Shown here: piece after piece, positions 24,942 through 33,625 of the stretch
Layout of the letters: each line of letters opens with the position of its first letter
Position numbering within the stretch: the first letter of the stretch is position 1
From: a bacterium
Lineage (GTDB): Bacteria > Pseudomonadota > Alphaproteobacteria > Rhizobiales > JAKIUO01
Length of the DNA: 34,210 nucleotides
NCBI GenBank assembly: GCA_024228495.1
Contig: JAAETJ010000996.1
Coordinates: 1-34,210 of the forward strand
Reading direction: 5' to 3'
The notes under the pieces: model-generated
Database searches by the model: none
Seen by the model: the letters and a program-made list of their open reading frames with translations, nothing else
What the model was told of the DNA's origin: nothing
Translations under genes and position numbers: made by a program

Positions 24942-26294
24942 TCAATCTTCATCATCCTCAGCAACAGCGACAAGCTCCTCACGAGAAACTTTTTTCTCGT
25001 CGATCTGCATAAGCTCCAGCAGATAATCAATTACTTTTTCCTCAAGCAAAGGTGCCCTGATTTCAGCAACTGCAGAAGGGTTTTGCTGGTAGAATTCAAT
25101 TACCTGCTGCTCTTGGCCAGGGAACTGCTTGATGCGTTCGCTAAGAGCGGCAGTGACTTCTTTCTCGCTGATCGTGATCTCATTTTTTTCCGCAATCTGC
25201 GAGAGAATAAGACCGAGCCTGACGCGACGCTCGGCAATATCTTGATATTTCTTGCGCGCATCATCTTCTTTATCTTCGCCATCCTCGCCGAAGTTTTTGC
25301 CATCATCACCCATTTTACTTGTGACTTGTTCCCATATTCCGTCAAATTCGTTTTCAACAAGTGAGGGCGGCAGCTCAAACTCATGAGCATTGTCAAGCTC
25401 ATCCATGATCGTTTTTTTCATTTTGTCACGACCATAGCCGTCCTGCTCTCCTTTGATCCCGCCTTCAACAGCAGTGCGCAGGGCTTCAATCGTATCAAAC
25501 CCGATGGTCTTGGCAAATTCATCATCAGCTTTTGGCATTGATGGCTCACCTACTTCCTTGACGGAGACTTCAAACTGAGCGCTTTTGCCGGCCAGATGTT
25601 CGGCATTATAGTCTTCGGGAAAAATCCCCTCGACGGTGATCTCGTCGCCAGCCATTGCGCCAATCAAACCCTCTTCAAAACCGGGAATAAAGCCTTGGCT
25701 GCCCAGCACCAGAAACGCATCTTCGGCGGAGCCACCTTCAAAGGTTTCCCCATCCAACTTGCCGACAAAATCAAGGGTAAGCCGATCTTTGTCCTTGGCT
25801 TTGCGTGTAACAGCCTCATAGCCGACGCTGTTTTCAAGAATATCTTCGATGCCCGCATCAATTTCTTTGGGATCAATATCAGCGACCAGTTTTTCGACCT
25901 TCATCTTGGAAAAGTCTGCCAGATCAAATACCGGTAGAATTTCGTACGTCATCAGGTAAGACAAATCCATCTCGCATGTCAGGATCTGCTCAATTTCCTT
26001 GTCATCCTCGGTCATTTTGATCATTGGCTGGAAAGCGGCGCGCTCATCACGTTCTTTTAGAACCGCATCATTTGTTGACGAGACCTCTTTTTGAATAATT
26101 TCACCCATCGCCTGCTTGCCGTAAAGGCGACGAAGATAGTCATAAGGTACTTTGCCCGGCCGGAAGCCCTTGAGCTGAACCTTGTCCTTCATTTCTTCAA
26201 GCTGCTCTTTCAGCTTTGCTTCAAGATCTTTGGCCGGGATAGTGATTTTCAACTCACGTTTCAAACCATCAGATTGTTTTTCGGTTACCTGCAT
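24942..26294 (-). CDS. tig: Trigger factor
   Basis: A 450-residue ribosome-bound chaperone and peptidyl-prolyl isomerase that shields nascent chains at the exit tunnel. The ribosome-docking signature GFRPGKVP is at about 43-50. An FKBP-type isomerase domain spans about 160-250 (VGKLDGETFEGG, GFIPGFEEGL). The C-terminal part is the helical chaperone domain and ends in an acidic tail. The length is typical. It heads the tig-clpP-clpX-lon series and lies 64 bases after tRNA-Leu. Confidence 0.96.
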   Translation of the reverse strand: MQVTEKQSDGLKRELKITIPAKDLEAKLKEQLEEMKDKVQLKGFRPGKVPYDYLRRLYGKQAMGEIIQKEVSSTNDAVLKERDERAAFQPMIKMTEDDKEIEQILTCEMDLSYLMTYEILPVFDLADFSKMKVEKLVADIDPKEIDAGIEDILENSVGYEAVTRKAKDKDRLTLDFVGKLDGETFEGGSAEDAFLVLGSQGFIPGFEEGLIGAMAGDEITVEGIFPEDYNAEHLAGKSAQFEVSVKEVGEPSMPKADDEFAKTIGFDTIEALRTAVEGGIKGEQDGYGRDKMKKTIMDELDNAHEFELPPSLVENEFDGIWEQVTSKMGDDGKNFGEDGEDKEDDARKKYQDIAERRVRLGLILSQIAEKNEITISEKEVTAALSERIKQFPGQEQQVIEFYQQNPSAVAEIRAPLLEEKVIDYLLELMQIDEKKVSREELVAVAEDDED

Positions 26295-26358
26295 ATGTTC
26301 CTACTCTGAAGAGCCCCTGCGCGGGTCTCATTCAATGCCTTCCTGGCTGAATTAATAT

Positions 26359-26443
26359 TGGTGCGGGCGGAGGGACTTGAACCCCCACGGCATAAGCCAC
26401 CAGATCCTAAATCTGGCGTGTCTACCAATTCCACCACGCCCGC
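26359..26443 (-). tRNA. tRNA-Leu (TAG)
   Basis: A complete class II tRNA on the minus strand, 85 nt with encoded CCA. Acceptor GCGGGCG pairs with CGCCCGC, the anticodon stem CCAGA/TCTGG encloses anticodon TAG, a long variable arm follows, and the T arm contains GGTTCAAGTCC. It lies 64 bases upstream of tig on the same strand. Confidence 0.97.
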
Positions 26444-26750
26444 ATTCGCCCCTGTCGCCACTTTTTTCTTCTGTAGCTTCAAAAAACCTTGTTCTCTTCC
26501 GCCCAGTGATGGTCGGGCTAAGATGTATTTAGACAAGTAAATCAGGACACCCAAAGCGGTGCCCATCAAAGAGTTCAACCTTATAAGCAGAAAAGTTTTG
26601 CCTGTTAAGCCCTATTTTTCAAGCATGGCAACGAAGCTGAGATATTTTTGACCGGTGTGCGATCAAAATGAGCGCAAAAAACAGAGTAGAAAAGCAACAG
26701 ATACACATACCGATCTTTTCGCAGCTAACAATGCAATTAAATTTTTAAGA
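26444..26750. other. Intergenic region upstream of tRNA-Leu
   Basis: No convincing gene. The open frame that runs through tRNA-Leu on the minus strand (26285-26578) is the tRNA read as protein. The region becomes AT-rich towards 26700. The tRNA-Leu promoter should lie in the first 60 bases, but I could not fix it by eye. Confidence 0.5.
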
Positions 26751-29986: not shown

Positions 29987-30484
29987 TTAACTCCAAAGAG
30001 CTGAAAGGTCCGGTTTCGCGACCATCAACCAGACCGCTCCGACCAGCGCCAGGAATGCCGGCCAACCCAGCCAGAACCAAAGGCGGGCCTTTTGATGATA
30101 AACGGTGGGCAATGGCGTTCCAGTCTCAAGGGCCGCAATAGCCATATCACGCATCTGGATTTGCAAATAGACAACGGGCAACCAGCAGATGCCAGCCAGA
30201 ATATAAAGGCCAAAGGATACCACCACCCAGGGTTCACTTATCGGCAACCCAAGTTCGCGTAACAGCAGATAGCCGCTAAGAGGCTGATATATCACGGTTG
30301 GTGTGGTGAACAGATAATCAGCGAGGACAACATGGCGGGCCGTGACCGCCTGCGTATGAAGGTCCCCTGCCCGATCAGCCATCCATTTGTAAAAGGCACT
30401 GCCAAGACCAGTGCCAAACAGTAAAAATGCGCTTAGAATATGGCTCCATTTCAATAGATTATATGCCGTAAAGTCTTCCAGCAT
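29987..30484 (-). CDS. DUF2269 family integral membrane protein
   Basis: A 165-residue membrane protein resembling the DUF2269 family (predicted integral membrane proteins of unknown function). Four hydrophobic segments are visible: near LLKWSHILSAFLLFGTGLG (about 10-30), around 53-75, PWVVVSFGLYILAGICWLPVV (about 84-104) and RLWFWLGWPAFLALVGAVWLM (about 133-153). The early KWSHILSAF motif, with a conserved His, is typical of the family. It starts 3 bases after the SDR-DoxX gene stops, so the two are almost certainly co-translated. The pairing of DUF2269 with NAD-binding DoxX proteins is known from other bacteria. Confidence 0.8.
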   Translation of the reverse strand: MLEDFTAYNLLKWSHILSAFLLFGTGLGSAFYKWMADRAGDLHTQAVTARHVVLADYLFTTPTVIYQPLSGYLLLRELGLPISEPWVVVSFGLYILAGICWLPVVYLQIQMRDMAIAALETGTPLPTVYHQKARLWFWLGWPAFLALVGAVWLMVAKPDLSALWS

Positions 30485-30487
30485 GAT

Positions 30488-31759
30488 TTAGTCCTCCAGA
30501 TTTTGCATGATCAGTATCGCGACAAGGATGGGAATGTTTTTGGCAAGAGGCCCAAAGGGGTCTGACCACATCATGGGCGCGACCCAGCTAAGCGCCAGCG
30601 TATAAACGGCAATCAGTCCAATTTGCAGAGCTGCTATCTGCTTGATACGAAACCGCATGAGCAGCGATAGTCCAATAAATATATCCAGAAGCACTGCCCC
30701 ATAGAAGGCTATTGTTCCCGTCGACCCCGTAAAACCCAGCTTAGCAAGCAATGCAAGGCTTTTCTCAACAGGAAAGAAGAACAAAGACACCACTCCCGCC
30801 ATGATCCACATAATGGCCAGCGCTATGCGCAGAGTCGGCCCAAGGAAATACAGACTGGCCGCTGATCTCGCCTCTTTGCTAGCCGGGTTTTGAGCCAGAA
30901 ATTGCGATAGCCCAATTGGTGTAAAGCCAAGCTTTGATGGACAATCGTCACCCACAAATTCTCGCGCTCCTTTCAGCATTGTCACGGCCTGTCGATTAAT
31001 CGGCATATCGGCGAACAGCGCCCCCCCTCCGGCCAGCGCCCCTGCGAGGCCATAAGGAATTTTAAGCGGACGGTGTTTTGCGTGCCCCAGCCAGTTTGTC
31101 AGAGCCTGCAAATAGCTTTTCAGCGTGACGCACTCGGCACCAACCAGATTGATACGATGTCCTGTCGCCTGCGGGCATTGGATCGAGGCTAATACAGCTC
31201 TGGTCACATCCTCAATCGCCACTGGCTGCAGTGGCTGCCCCCCGTTACCAATAACCGGCGTAACTGGCAAGGAAGCCAATGCCTTAAAAAAGCGCCAACT
31301 TTCGCCGCTCCCACCGATGATCAATGATGGGCGCAATACCACCCATTCCACCTCCAGCGTTGCAAGCGTATCATCCGCCCGCTGCTTGGATAAATGATAA
31401 GGGCCGGTAGCACTTTCATCTGTACCCAGAGCAGAGATCTGAATGATCCGCTTCACACCCGCTGTTTTACTCGCGGCAAACAACGCCCTTGGAGCTTTGT
31501 CATGCAAGGCCTCAAAACTTTGTCTACGCGTTGGCTTAAAAATCCCAACAGCATTGATGACGAGGTCAACATTTTCAACCACATCACTCCAGTCGTCAGG
31601 ACGGTGAGCAGTTGCAAAATCAATAATCCGCCAGTCGTGACCATCTGCTCCCGTATGGGGCGTTCTTGATGTAAGAACTAGACTGTGTTCTTCGCTGGCC
31701 AGCGCTTGTACGATATGTTGACCTATAAAGCCTGTCGCCCCTGTTACCAATATCCTCAT
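30488..31759 (-). CDS. SDR-type NAD(P)-binding protein fused to a DoxX-like membrane domain
   Basis: A 423-residue two-part protein. Residues 1-290 form an atypical short-chain dehydrogenase (NmrA/epimerase-like) with the dinucleotide-binding loop GATGFIG (7-13), and YHLSKQRAD carrying the Tyr and Lys of the active site. Residues 310-423 are hydrophobic, with about four membrane helices of the DoxX-like type. The frame is open up to 31798, but I chose the ATG at 31759 because the Rossmann fold starts exactly there and GGGACA lies just ahead. It begins 13 bases after the small membrane protein gene and ends 3 bases before DUF2269. The substrate is unknown. The fusion suggests a reductase tethered to the inner membrane. 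Confidence 0.85.
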   Translation of the reverse strand: MRILVTGATGFIGQHIVQALASEEHSLVLTSRTPHTGADGHDWRIIDFATAHRPDDWSDVVENVDLVINAVGIFKPTRRQSFEALHDKAPRALFAASKTAGVKRIIQISALGTDESATGPYHLSKQRADDTLATLEVEWVVLRPSLIIGGSGESWRFFKALASLPVTPVIGNGGQPLQPVAIEDVTRAVLASIQCPQATGHRINLVGAECVTLKSYLQALTNWLGHAKHRPLKIPYGLAGALAGGGALFADMPINRQAVTMLKGAREFVGDDCPSKLGFTPIGLSQFLAQNPASKEARSAASLYFLGPTLRIALAIMWIMAGVVSLFFFPVEKSLALLAKLGFTGSTGTIAFYGAVLLDIFIGLSLLMRFRIKQIAALQIGLIAVYTLALSWVAPMMWSDPFGPLAKNIPILVAILIMQNLED

Positions 31760-31772
31760 TTTACTGTCCCTT

Positions 31773-32144
31773 TTACCAAAACGTGGGCGCGCTTGCATTT
31801 AGTTCGGCATCAAGTTGTTTGAAAGGCGTGCACCCTATGACGCGGGCAATCTCCAAAAGCGCGATGATCAAGCAAACCAGAGCGAACAATAAGGACCTTG
31901 AGAATGCAACTTCCGTGGGTAGCGCATGGTTTGAAAAAGCTGCCATAAACAGCACACCAAGCGCTGGCGCCAATACCATCATCACCATTGAATAAGCCGT
32001 CCGGAAGGTAGCGCTGAGTCCAGTGCGGCAAGCATCCCCCAAGGTCCCATTTAAAGGTTTCGTCAATAGCAATGCAAACAAAGCAACTGTTCCGCAGGCC
32101 GCAATGCCGCTAGTCAAAAGAGTTGCCGTCATATCAATATTCAT
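31773..32144 (-). CDS. Small membrane protein, unknown, first gene of the regulated operon
   Basis: A 123-residue protein with three clear hydrophobic segments: about 7-29, 50-69 and 83-103. I do not recognise a family. There is no good ribosome binding site before the ATG at 32144. The promoter predicted just upstream would start transcription at or within a few bases of this ATG. The message may therefore be leaderless, or translation may start at the second ATG (32132, Met5). It follows the regulator gene on the same strand, with the palindromic operator between them, and precedes the SDR-DoxX gene by 13 bases. Confidence 0.65.
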   Translation of the reverse strand: MNIDMTATLLTSGIAACGTVALFALLLTKPLNGTLGDACRTGLSATFRTAYSMVMMVLAPALGVLFMAAFSNHALPTEVAFSRSLLFALVCLIIALLEIARVIGCTPFKQLDAELNASAPTFW

Positions 32145-32147
32145 TTC

Positions 32148-32177
32148 ATAATATTCGTTGTTTCTGTAATAACAGAA
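32148..32177 (-). promoter_or_regulatory. Predicted promoter of the membrane-protein/SDR operon
   Basis: On the minus strand TTCTGT (32172-32177) and TATTAT (32148-32153) are 18 bases apart. The -35 hexamer lies inside the palindrome at 32161-32179, so a bound repressor would block RNA polymerase directly. The -10 element ends only 3 bases before the ATG at 32144. Confidence 0.5.
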
Positions 32178-32179
32178 AT
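32161..32179. promoter_or_regulatory. Operator copy 2, palindromic
   Basis: TTTCTGTAATAACAGAAAT contains a perfect 7+7 inverted repeat (TTTCTGT and ACAGAAA) around the 4-base centre AATA. It is identical over 19 bases to the copy at 32749-32767 and lies in the same orientation. It sits between the regulator gene and the gene it is predicted to control. It is the likely binding site of the GbsR-like regulator. Confidence 0.75.
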
Positions 32180-32194
32180 GATTACTTAGTAAAA

Positions 32195-32713
32195 TTACCG
32201 ACCAATTAGCCGGATGATTTTACTGCCCATATTGACCATTTTCATTAAGGTCTCATTGGGAACTTTCTTTACATCTTCATACCAGTCCGACATTTGATCG
32301 ACAAAGGTAAGCATATCGCCGATCTGTTGTTTGACATGGGGATCCGTCTGCTTTTCGCGTGCCGCCTCTTCCGAAAGATCACGCAAGATCGATAAGGTTG
32401 GGTCGATTTCGCGTTGTTTGCGGCTTTCAACAATGACGTTAAACGTCTCTTGAACATCTTTTAGCGCTCTAAAATGATCGCGCCGGTCGCCAATCACATG
32501 AGCTTTGTGAACCAGCCCAAGACCTTGCAATTCCTTCAAGCTATTGGAGACATTGGAGCGCGCAATATTGAGCTCTTCGCAAATCTGCTCTGCGGTCATC
32601 GGTTTGCGTGCCAGATACAGCAATCCATGTATCTGCGACACGGAGCGATTAACGCCCCAACGGCTACCCATCTCCCCCCAATGCAACACAAATTTTTCAA
32701 CAATCGGTGTCAT
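32195..32713 (-). CDS. GbsR/MarR-family transcriptional regulator
   Basis: A 172-residue winged-helix regulator resembling the GbsR subgroup of MarR proteins. The DNA-binding part spans about 25-90, with the recognition region ICEELNIARSNVSNSLKELQGLGLV and the wing including DRRDHF. The C-terminal half is helical and probably mediates dimerisation and ligand sensing. GGAG lies 8 bases before the ATG. A palindromic operator overlaps the predicted -35 of its own promoter, so autorepression is likely. GbsR proteins elsewhere sense choline or respond to osmotic stress; the signal here is unknown. Confidence 0.82.
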   Translation of the reverse strand: MTPIVEKFVLHWGEMGSRWGVNRSVSQIHGLLYLARKPMTAEQICEELNIARSNVSNSLKELQGLGLVHKAHVIGDRRDHFRALKDVQETFNVIVESRKQREIDPTLSILRDLSEEAAREKQTDPHVKQQIGDMLTFVDQMSDWYEDVKKVPNETLMKMVNMGSKIIRLIGR

Positions 32714-32736
32714 AATACCTGCTCCAAATATTTTAT

Positions 32737-32765
32737 ATTATACATACATTTCTGTAATAACAGAA
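32737..32765 (-). promoter_or_regulatory. Predicted promoter of the GbsR-like regulator gene
   Basis: On the minus strand TTCTGT (32760-32765) and a perfect TATAAT (32737-32742) are 17 bases apart, ideal spacing for a sigma70-type promoter. The -35 and most of the spacer are covered by the palindrome at 32749-32767. Transcription would start about 15-20 bases upstream of the gene's ATG. Confidence 0.65.
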
Positions 32766-32767
32766 AT
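32749..32767. promoter_or_regulatory. Operator copy 1, palindromic
   Basis: The same 19 bases as at 32161-32179, about 35 bases upstream of the regulator's start codon. At this copy the symmetry extends one base further on each side (an A at 32748 pairs with the T at 32767), making an 8+8 inverted repeat. Its position over the promoter indicates negative autoregulation. Confidence 0.75.
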
Positions 32768-32903
32768 TACTATAGTTTCATTCGGTTGGCAACCCTCGGA
32801 TTTTCACACCCACTGAAAGAGTACCCGTTTCAAGTCTCAAACGTAACATCTGCTTACTGATGGAGTATGGTTTAATTAGCCGGTCTGGTGATCGCTTCAA
32901 GGG

Positions 32904-33058
32904 CTAAAGCAGATGCAACTTGTCGATCCGGCGCATCAATTTGAGGTCGGCGTCGGACACGGAACGGTGCTTGTGATAGAGGCTGCCCCGGCAAATGCCG
33001 AGCGCTTTGGCTTGATGGTTGAGCGGTAATTTGTGGTTGCGATCAATTATTTCTTTGC
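32904..33058 (-). pseudogene. IS3-family transposase OrfB fragment
   Basis: About 50 codons of the N-terminal region of an IS3-type OrfB, in the -1 frame relative to OrfA as expected for this family. It has DRNHKLPL, then QAKALGICRGSLYH, then DLKLMRRIDKLHL, and then hits a TAG at 32904-32906. The catalytic integrase core is absent, so the element is dead. The truncation point lies about 140 bases from the regulator's operator. Confidence 0.75.
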
Positions 33059-33298
33059 GCTCGGCAATCCCGCTTTGGTGAGCGCCGTTTCTAAAAAATC
33101 ATTTTCCAGTATCAATTCGCCGATCTTGGCGTGCAGGGTTTTGACGTCAATGGTGGGCTCAGGCTTCTGCTTGATCTGGTTGTAATGAACATCAAATTGC
33201 TGCGCCAATTCACTCAAGGTCTTTTCACCCTTGATCACTTTAAGCGGGACTTTGGATTTGGAAGCCGGGGTGTGATTTCTGCGTACTCGTCTCGTCAC
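33047..33298 (-). pseudogene. IS3-family transposase OrfA, internally deleted
   Basis: An 83-residue frame starting at a GTG with AGGAG 8 bases ahead. It matches the IS3-type OrfA pattern: VTRRVRRNHTP, then GEKTLSELAQQFDVHYNQI, then DVKTLHAKIGELILENDFLE. The usual stretch after NQI (a tryptophan-containing helix end and linker of about 20 residues) is missing in frame, so the helix-turn-helix region runs directly into the leucine-zipper-like segment. Together with the broken OrfB this is a decayed insertion. Confidence 0.75.
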
Positions 33299-33331
33299 AA
33301 AGGGGCTCCTGTTTTCGGCAATCATGCCGGT

Positions 33332-33625
33332 TTACAGTCCATAAATACACTTATAGGAACTGTGCAGATTTCCCGAGCCAGTTTTCTGGAGGACATCTTG
33401 GATTGGTGCGACCTCCTGGTCCAGCCATCGCTGAGTAGCTTTGTTACGTTCTTGTAAAGCACGTAGGTCAGCGCGCGCAACTCCGCCACCACAAGCATAA
33501 CCACCACATCCCGCAAATGGTGCCGGGGCCATGTCGCGCTCATCTTCGTGTTGAATAAACTGGTAGCACAAAAAGCCGGACCTGTTCAAAAAAGTGTATA
33601 TGATCTCTCGGGGCTCGACATCCAT
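33332..33625 (-). CDS. Unidentified ORF between IS remnant and PGPGW gene
   Basis: A 97-codon frame starting at an ATG. It contains a hydrophilic stretch, ALQERNKATQRWLDQEVAPI, that looks protein-like. An overlapping frame (33322-33543) also reads plausibly (RHHLRDVVVMLVVAELRAL), so I cannot say which, if either, is translated. No family is recognised. Its place next to a decayed IS3 element suggests it may be part of a degenerate mobile or accessory gene. Confidence 0.3.
   Translation of the reverse strand: MDVEPREIIYTFLNRSGFLCYQFIQHEDERDMAPAPFAGCGGYACGGGVARADLRALQERNKATQRWLDQEVAPIQDVLQKTGSGNLHSSYKCIYGL

Follow-up and report, generated by a model that had tools for sequence, protein, structure and literature searches.

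A GbsR-type regulator and its palindromic operators as a probable autoregulatory switch ahead of an SDR-DoxX operon

Our analysis of a 34,210-nucleotide stretch of alphaproteobacterial DNA (hereafter the window) indicates that, very probably, a GbsR-type dimeric repressor acts on the palindrome TTTCTGT-N4-ACAGAAA and controls both its own gene, at operator 1, and the operon that follows it, at operator 2 (Table 1). A repressor dimer would occupy each palindrome. At operator 1 it would mask the -10 element and the start site from which its own gene is transcribed and so limit its own synthesis, while at operator 2 the same repressor would control the operon for a small membrane protein, an SDR-DoxX protein and a DUF2269 protein, until an inducer freed it from both operators. 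Within the recognition helix, Asn57 would correspond to T at half-site position 5, where Met or Ile in a sister branch linked to cytochrome bd (cyd) genes would read A.

Table 1. Features of the switch and the adjoining operon in the window
Feature	Position	Strand	Remarks
GbsR/MarR-type regulator, 172 aa	32195..32713	-	ORF; recognition helix residues 52-65, with Asn57
Predicted -35, TTGCCA	32787..32792	-	
Predicted -10, TAATTT	32764..32769	-	17 bp from the -35; overlaps the left arm of operator 1
Operator 1, TTTCTGT-N4-ACAGAAA	32749..32766	none	lies across the regulator gene's predicted -10 and start site
Terminator-like hairpin, weak	32198..32213	-	folds from the final codons of the regulator gene
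A/T tract TTTTACT	32188..32194	-	stands where the conserved T-tract is found, at -16 to -10 from operator 2
Operator 2, same 18-bp palindrome	32161..32178	none	between regulator and operon
First operon gene, 123-aa predicted membrane protein	31773..32144	-	no Pfam match
SDR (NAD-binding) fused to DoxX_3	30488..31762	-	start 31762 placed by homology
DUF2269 integral membrane protein, last operon gene	29987..30484	-	ORF and Pfam

The 19-mer TTTCTGTAATAACAGAAAT occurs in two exact copies, at 32161-32179 and 32749-32767, with the regulator gene between them on the minus strand, as a sequence-only reading had noticed, and no match to it with up to three mismatches turned up when the window was dinucleotide-shuffled 100 times. 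The same reading had described a 19-bp palindrome; the repeat is indeed exact over 19 bp, but the palindrome proper has only 18, with 7-bp arms TTTCTGT and ACAGAAA around the centre AATA, and base 19 lies outside it. To judge from its sequence, such a site fits a dimeric regulator. A scan of the 5.1-Mb genome found no perfect site besides these two, and its 18 sites with up to two mismatches, against 25 for a reversed control pattern, amount to background; most of the near-matches that we read, including both one-mismatch sites, lie within long ORFs. A wider regulon in the organism's own genome was therefore rejected.

The motif is conserved near orthologues, as the proposed search upstream of them bore out. 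Eighty relatives chosen by protein alone, together with the window, gave 81 regulators, 78 of which have TTTCTGT-N4-ACAGAAA upstream (at most 2 mismatches of 14, at most 150 bp from the start), in proteobacteria, Verrucomicrobiota and Planctomycetota, compared with 0.13% of random 153-bp windows from the same loci; one of the three exceptions is cut by a contig end. A second copy (at most 2 mismatches) lies 3' of the regulator gene in ~40% of this set. A motif-first scan of 289 alphaproteobacterial genomes, in which regulators were located separately by protein, returned 22 perfect sites, 14 of them within ~0.9 kb of a regulator gene; a perfect site occurs near the regulator in 10 of the 27 regulator-bearing genomes, and elsewhere in 8 other genomes (Fisher p 2e-7). 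The operator pair is real and conserved and most likely forms part of an autoregulatory switch. The conservation near orthologues and the footprint of a related regulator on a sister motif (PMC6096048) support the earlier proposal that the palindrome is the operator of a GbsR/MarR branch under its own control and is repeated ahead of the following gene. We also observed a perfect operator at 1501-1518 of locus L237, which belongs to the same genome as locus L142 and lies on a contig other than the regulator's; it stands 5' of a fatty acid desaturase gene, adjoins a YhhN gene, and is a possible distant target of the regulator.

The protein is a GbsR-type MarR regulator with a MarR-type winged helix and an Mj223-like fold. 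It matches MarR_2 with 43.5 bits (cut-off 27), and among solved structures Mj223 (1ku9; structural match VIA Z 16.1, rmsd 3.7, 148 aligned) is its best relative in sequence as well as in fold; the recognition helix in Table 1 is that of the predicted structure model. The choline-responsive GbsR/CudC group does not include it, since it reaches 60.6 bits against the CudC equivalog model, far below the cut-off of 218, and its neighbours are SDR-DoxX and DUF2269 genes, not osmoprotectant genes. GbsR, OpcR and OpuAR of Bacillus are repressors of the same family and Mj223-like fold but differ in controlling osmoprotectant genes and in having choline or glycine betaine as ligand (PMC6207618, PMC7396694).

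The nearest characterised relatives of the regulator are CydE and CioR. CydE of Alishewanella sp. WH16-1 is a GbsR-type autorepressor that controls cydAB, and its footprinted site is the sister motif TTTCAGAAATTTCTGAAA, with site 1 reading TATTTCAGAAATTTCTGAAAGTTCA (PMC6096048). CioR of Chromobacterium violaceum represses its own cioRAB operon; it differs in controlling cioAB, and a search of its description found no defined operator motif (PMC11837568). Our comparison used cyd-linked relatives in place of the CydE protein sequence itself. Plasmid and genome searches showed that relatives adjoining cydDC or cydAB are mostly 36-47% identical to the window protein, and the cyd-linked regulators group in one clade, whose 56 tips invariably have Met or Ile at residue 57 and whose base has low support (0.24). 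The CydE site has the same layout as that of the window, and its site 1 contains an exact 18-mer that is also present 5' of several cyd-linked regulators, but its half-site is TTTCAG instead of TTTCTG and its target is cydAB; the cyd-linked branch differs further in its S51/M57-type helices and in the rarity of a second operator. The window shares with CydE and CioR a palindrome in its own promoter region, whereas it has neither adjacent cydAB or cydDC genes nor a place in the Met/Ile57 clade with TTTCAG..CTGAAA. With A51, N57, the operator TTTCTG..CAGAAA and its membrane and SDR neighbours, it falls instead within the SDR/DUF-linked GbsR-like branch, a group that we define here by Asn, Thr or Ser at residue 57, TTTCTG..CAGAAA, and membrane or SDR neighbours. 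To call this an uncharacterised branch, as had been done, was nearly right for the SDR/DUF-linked regulators themselves and overlooked the characterised sister branch of CydE and CioR. The operator is not new in kind; the branch, the operator code and the T-tract that keeps a fixed spacing to operator 2 (see below) appear to be undescribed in open-licence papers, where we found no description of them and where searches with motif strings and DUF names returned nothing on the SDR/DUF-linked branch.

Across 208 loci, cyd-linked regulators go with TTTCAG and the SDR/DUF-linked branch with TTTCTG. In the combined set, TTTCAG..CTGAAA is found at 45 of 46 cyd-linked sites and TTTCTG..CAGAAA at 89 of 105 SDR/DUF-linked ones, a further 12 being mixed. 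Met or Ile at residue 57 accompanies A in the half-site, Asn accompanies T (77/79), and Thr is permissive. Residue 57 separates the operator types by 31:3 against 3:77 among non-redundant sequences (p 4e-21), an association in which the half-site base seems to follow the recognition helix and which comes from related sequences and reflects largely one deep split of the tree, with few independent changes. Within the A51 branch, no column is associated more strongly with A-type half-sites than residue 57 (z 8.8), and one SDR/DUF-linked regulator (L138) combines Met57 with an A-type operator, an independent switch of both. Two loci depart from the rule: a cydA-linked regulator (L136) has Met57 yet a T-type operator, and a member of the cyd clade on a Pseudoalteromonas plasmid (L120) has no adjacent cyd genes and a mixed operator, TTTCTG..CTGAAA.

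The promoter of the regulator gene keeps a fixed register with the palindrome. Among non-redundant orthologues it is preceded by a TTGACA-like -35 with a peak at -28 to -25, and the best -10 begins at -5 to -3 in 71 of 114 members of a larger set. This conserved promoter 1 consists of a TTGACA-like -35, 17 bp and TAATTT, and the positions of its elements mean that operator 1 covers both the -10 and the start of transcription. TTGCC stands at -26 in the window and in all three of its congeners, its closest relatives. The initial suggestion that both operators cover a -35 is not supported by this geometry at operator 1, and at operator 2 there is no conserved sigma-70 promoter to be covered. The two promoters then proposed, TTCTGT-17-TATAAT and TTCTGT-18-TATTAT, are literally present with those spacings. 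TTCTGT, however, makes a poor -35, and two of the three congeners (L001 and L003) lack the stretch containing TATAAT. The window's -10, TAATTT, is weak; TATAAT lies further down and may give the window an additional promoter.

Operator 2 is a trait of part of the family: about half of the SDR/DUF-linked branch (56 of 105 loci) carries it 3' of the gene, as do 18 of 43 unassigned loci, against 1 of the 46 loci linked to cyd genes. No conserved sigma-70 -10 or -35 was detected in 64 non-redundant operator 2 sites, whereas both are obvious at operator 1. Instead, 61 of 75 sites have an A/T tract (at least 6 A/T of 7 bases) at exactly -16 to -10 from the operator, mostly T7 on the coding strand and in a position independent of the distance to the stop codon, and a hairpin abuts this tract at 37% of sites against 10-13% of controls. 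The window has the second operator with a tract of 6/7 A/T, weaker than T7. We rejected the tract as a plain terminator only, since most loci have no adjacent hairpin and yet the spacing to the operator is fixed, and also as a -35 with its -10 in or 3' of operator 2, where no -10 was found.

How operator 2 would act can be explained in several ways. In one, which we hold to be just short of probable, the regulator transcript stops at a terminator and the operon is driven by a separate, non-conserved promoter under operator 2, the T-tract being perhaps an UP element. The TTCTGT-18-TATTAT of the window, a correspondingly placed CATAAT-like element in two of the three congeners, the hairpin CCGGCTAATTGGTCGG, and the many loci in which operator 2 closely precedes the start of the next gene all agree with this, although the 64 sites show no conserved promoter elements and a free-standing terminator needs no fixed spacing to an operator. 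Alternatively, and more doubtfully, operator 2 might be a repressor-dependent terminator, such that polymerase that has started at promoter 1 and crossed the regulator gene runs into the bound repressor with its active site over the T-tract and is released there, but, when the repressor is absent, reads through into the operon. The fixed place of the tract whatever the stop-codon distance, the excess of adjacent hairpins and the lack of a conserved promoter argue for such a device. There is a precedent in YtgR at trpRBA of Chlamydia, whose operator likewise lies between the regulator gene and the genes behind it and ends read-through transcription, even though YtgR is an unrelated iron-dependent regulator and acts in a 348-bp intergenic region with an added promoter (PMC6504234). 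Against it stand the lack of a clear hairpin at most loci and the weak tract of the window. The position at which polymerase stalls relative to a roadblock is, moreover, a general estimate, which weakens the case. That T-tract, 9 bp and operator form a conserved repressor-controlled terminator module, with initiation blocked at operator 1 and polymerase released at operator 2 via the U-tract, we consider slightly more doubtful still.

It is improbable that operator 2 is an auxiliary site looped to operator 1 across the regulator gene by a tetramer. Two identical sites ~590 bp apart would suit a loop, as would the outer half-sites TTCTGT and ACAGAA that orthologues carry at operator 1 exactly 9 bp beyond the inner ones (z ~13 and ~14) and that suggest more than one dimer; the right one is enriched at operator 2 too (z 11), and both are poor in the window. 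Half of the branch, however, has no second site, and the loop leaves the fixed T-tract unexplained. That the palindrome is an RNA hairpin (stem 7, loop 4) and no DNA site is extremely improbable: the inverted repeat could fold as RNA, but transcription is predicted to start within operator 1, specificity tracks the recognition helix, and variants such as TTTCAGT..ACAGAAA break the pairing with no compensation.

Across phyla, the neighbours of the regulator genes, identified in GC-rich loci by Pfam and tblastn, include SDR with DoxX_3 or DUF1731, DUF2269, DUF4166, DCC1, MBOAT, DUF2071 and, rarely, fatty acid desaturases; our guess is that they do membrane lipid or redox work. Elsewhere in the window, short minus-strand ORFs lie upstream of the regulator (33047-33625), the first of which we take, by eye, to be a transposase fragment, and a listed 97-aa ORF at 26285-26578, which runs across a tRNA-Leu gene (26359-26443), is probably spurious.

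The association at residue 57 leads to the prediction that a single residue sets a single operator base. If the terminator module were true, it would be a compact device for placing termination under repressor control and would allow regulator and operon to be tuned separately from one promoter. The motif marks operons of SDR, DoxX, DUF2269, DUF4166, DCC1/MBOAT and DUF2071 genes as one regulon type, and a widespread regulator branch without assigned function gains a motif, a promoter geometry and a footprinted relative.
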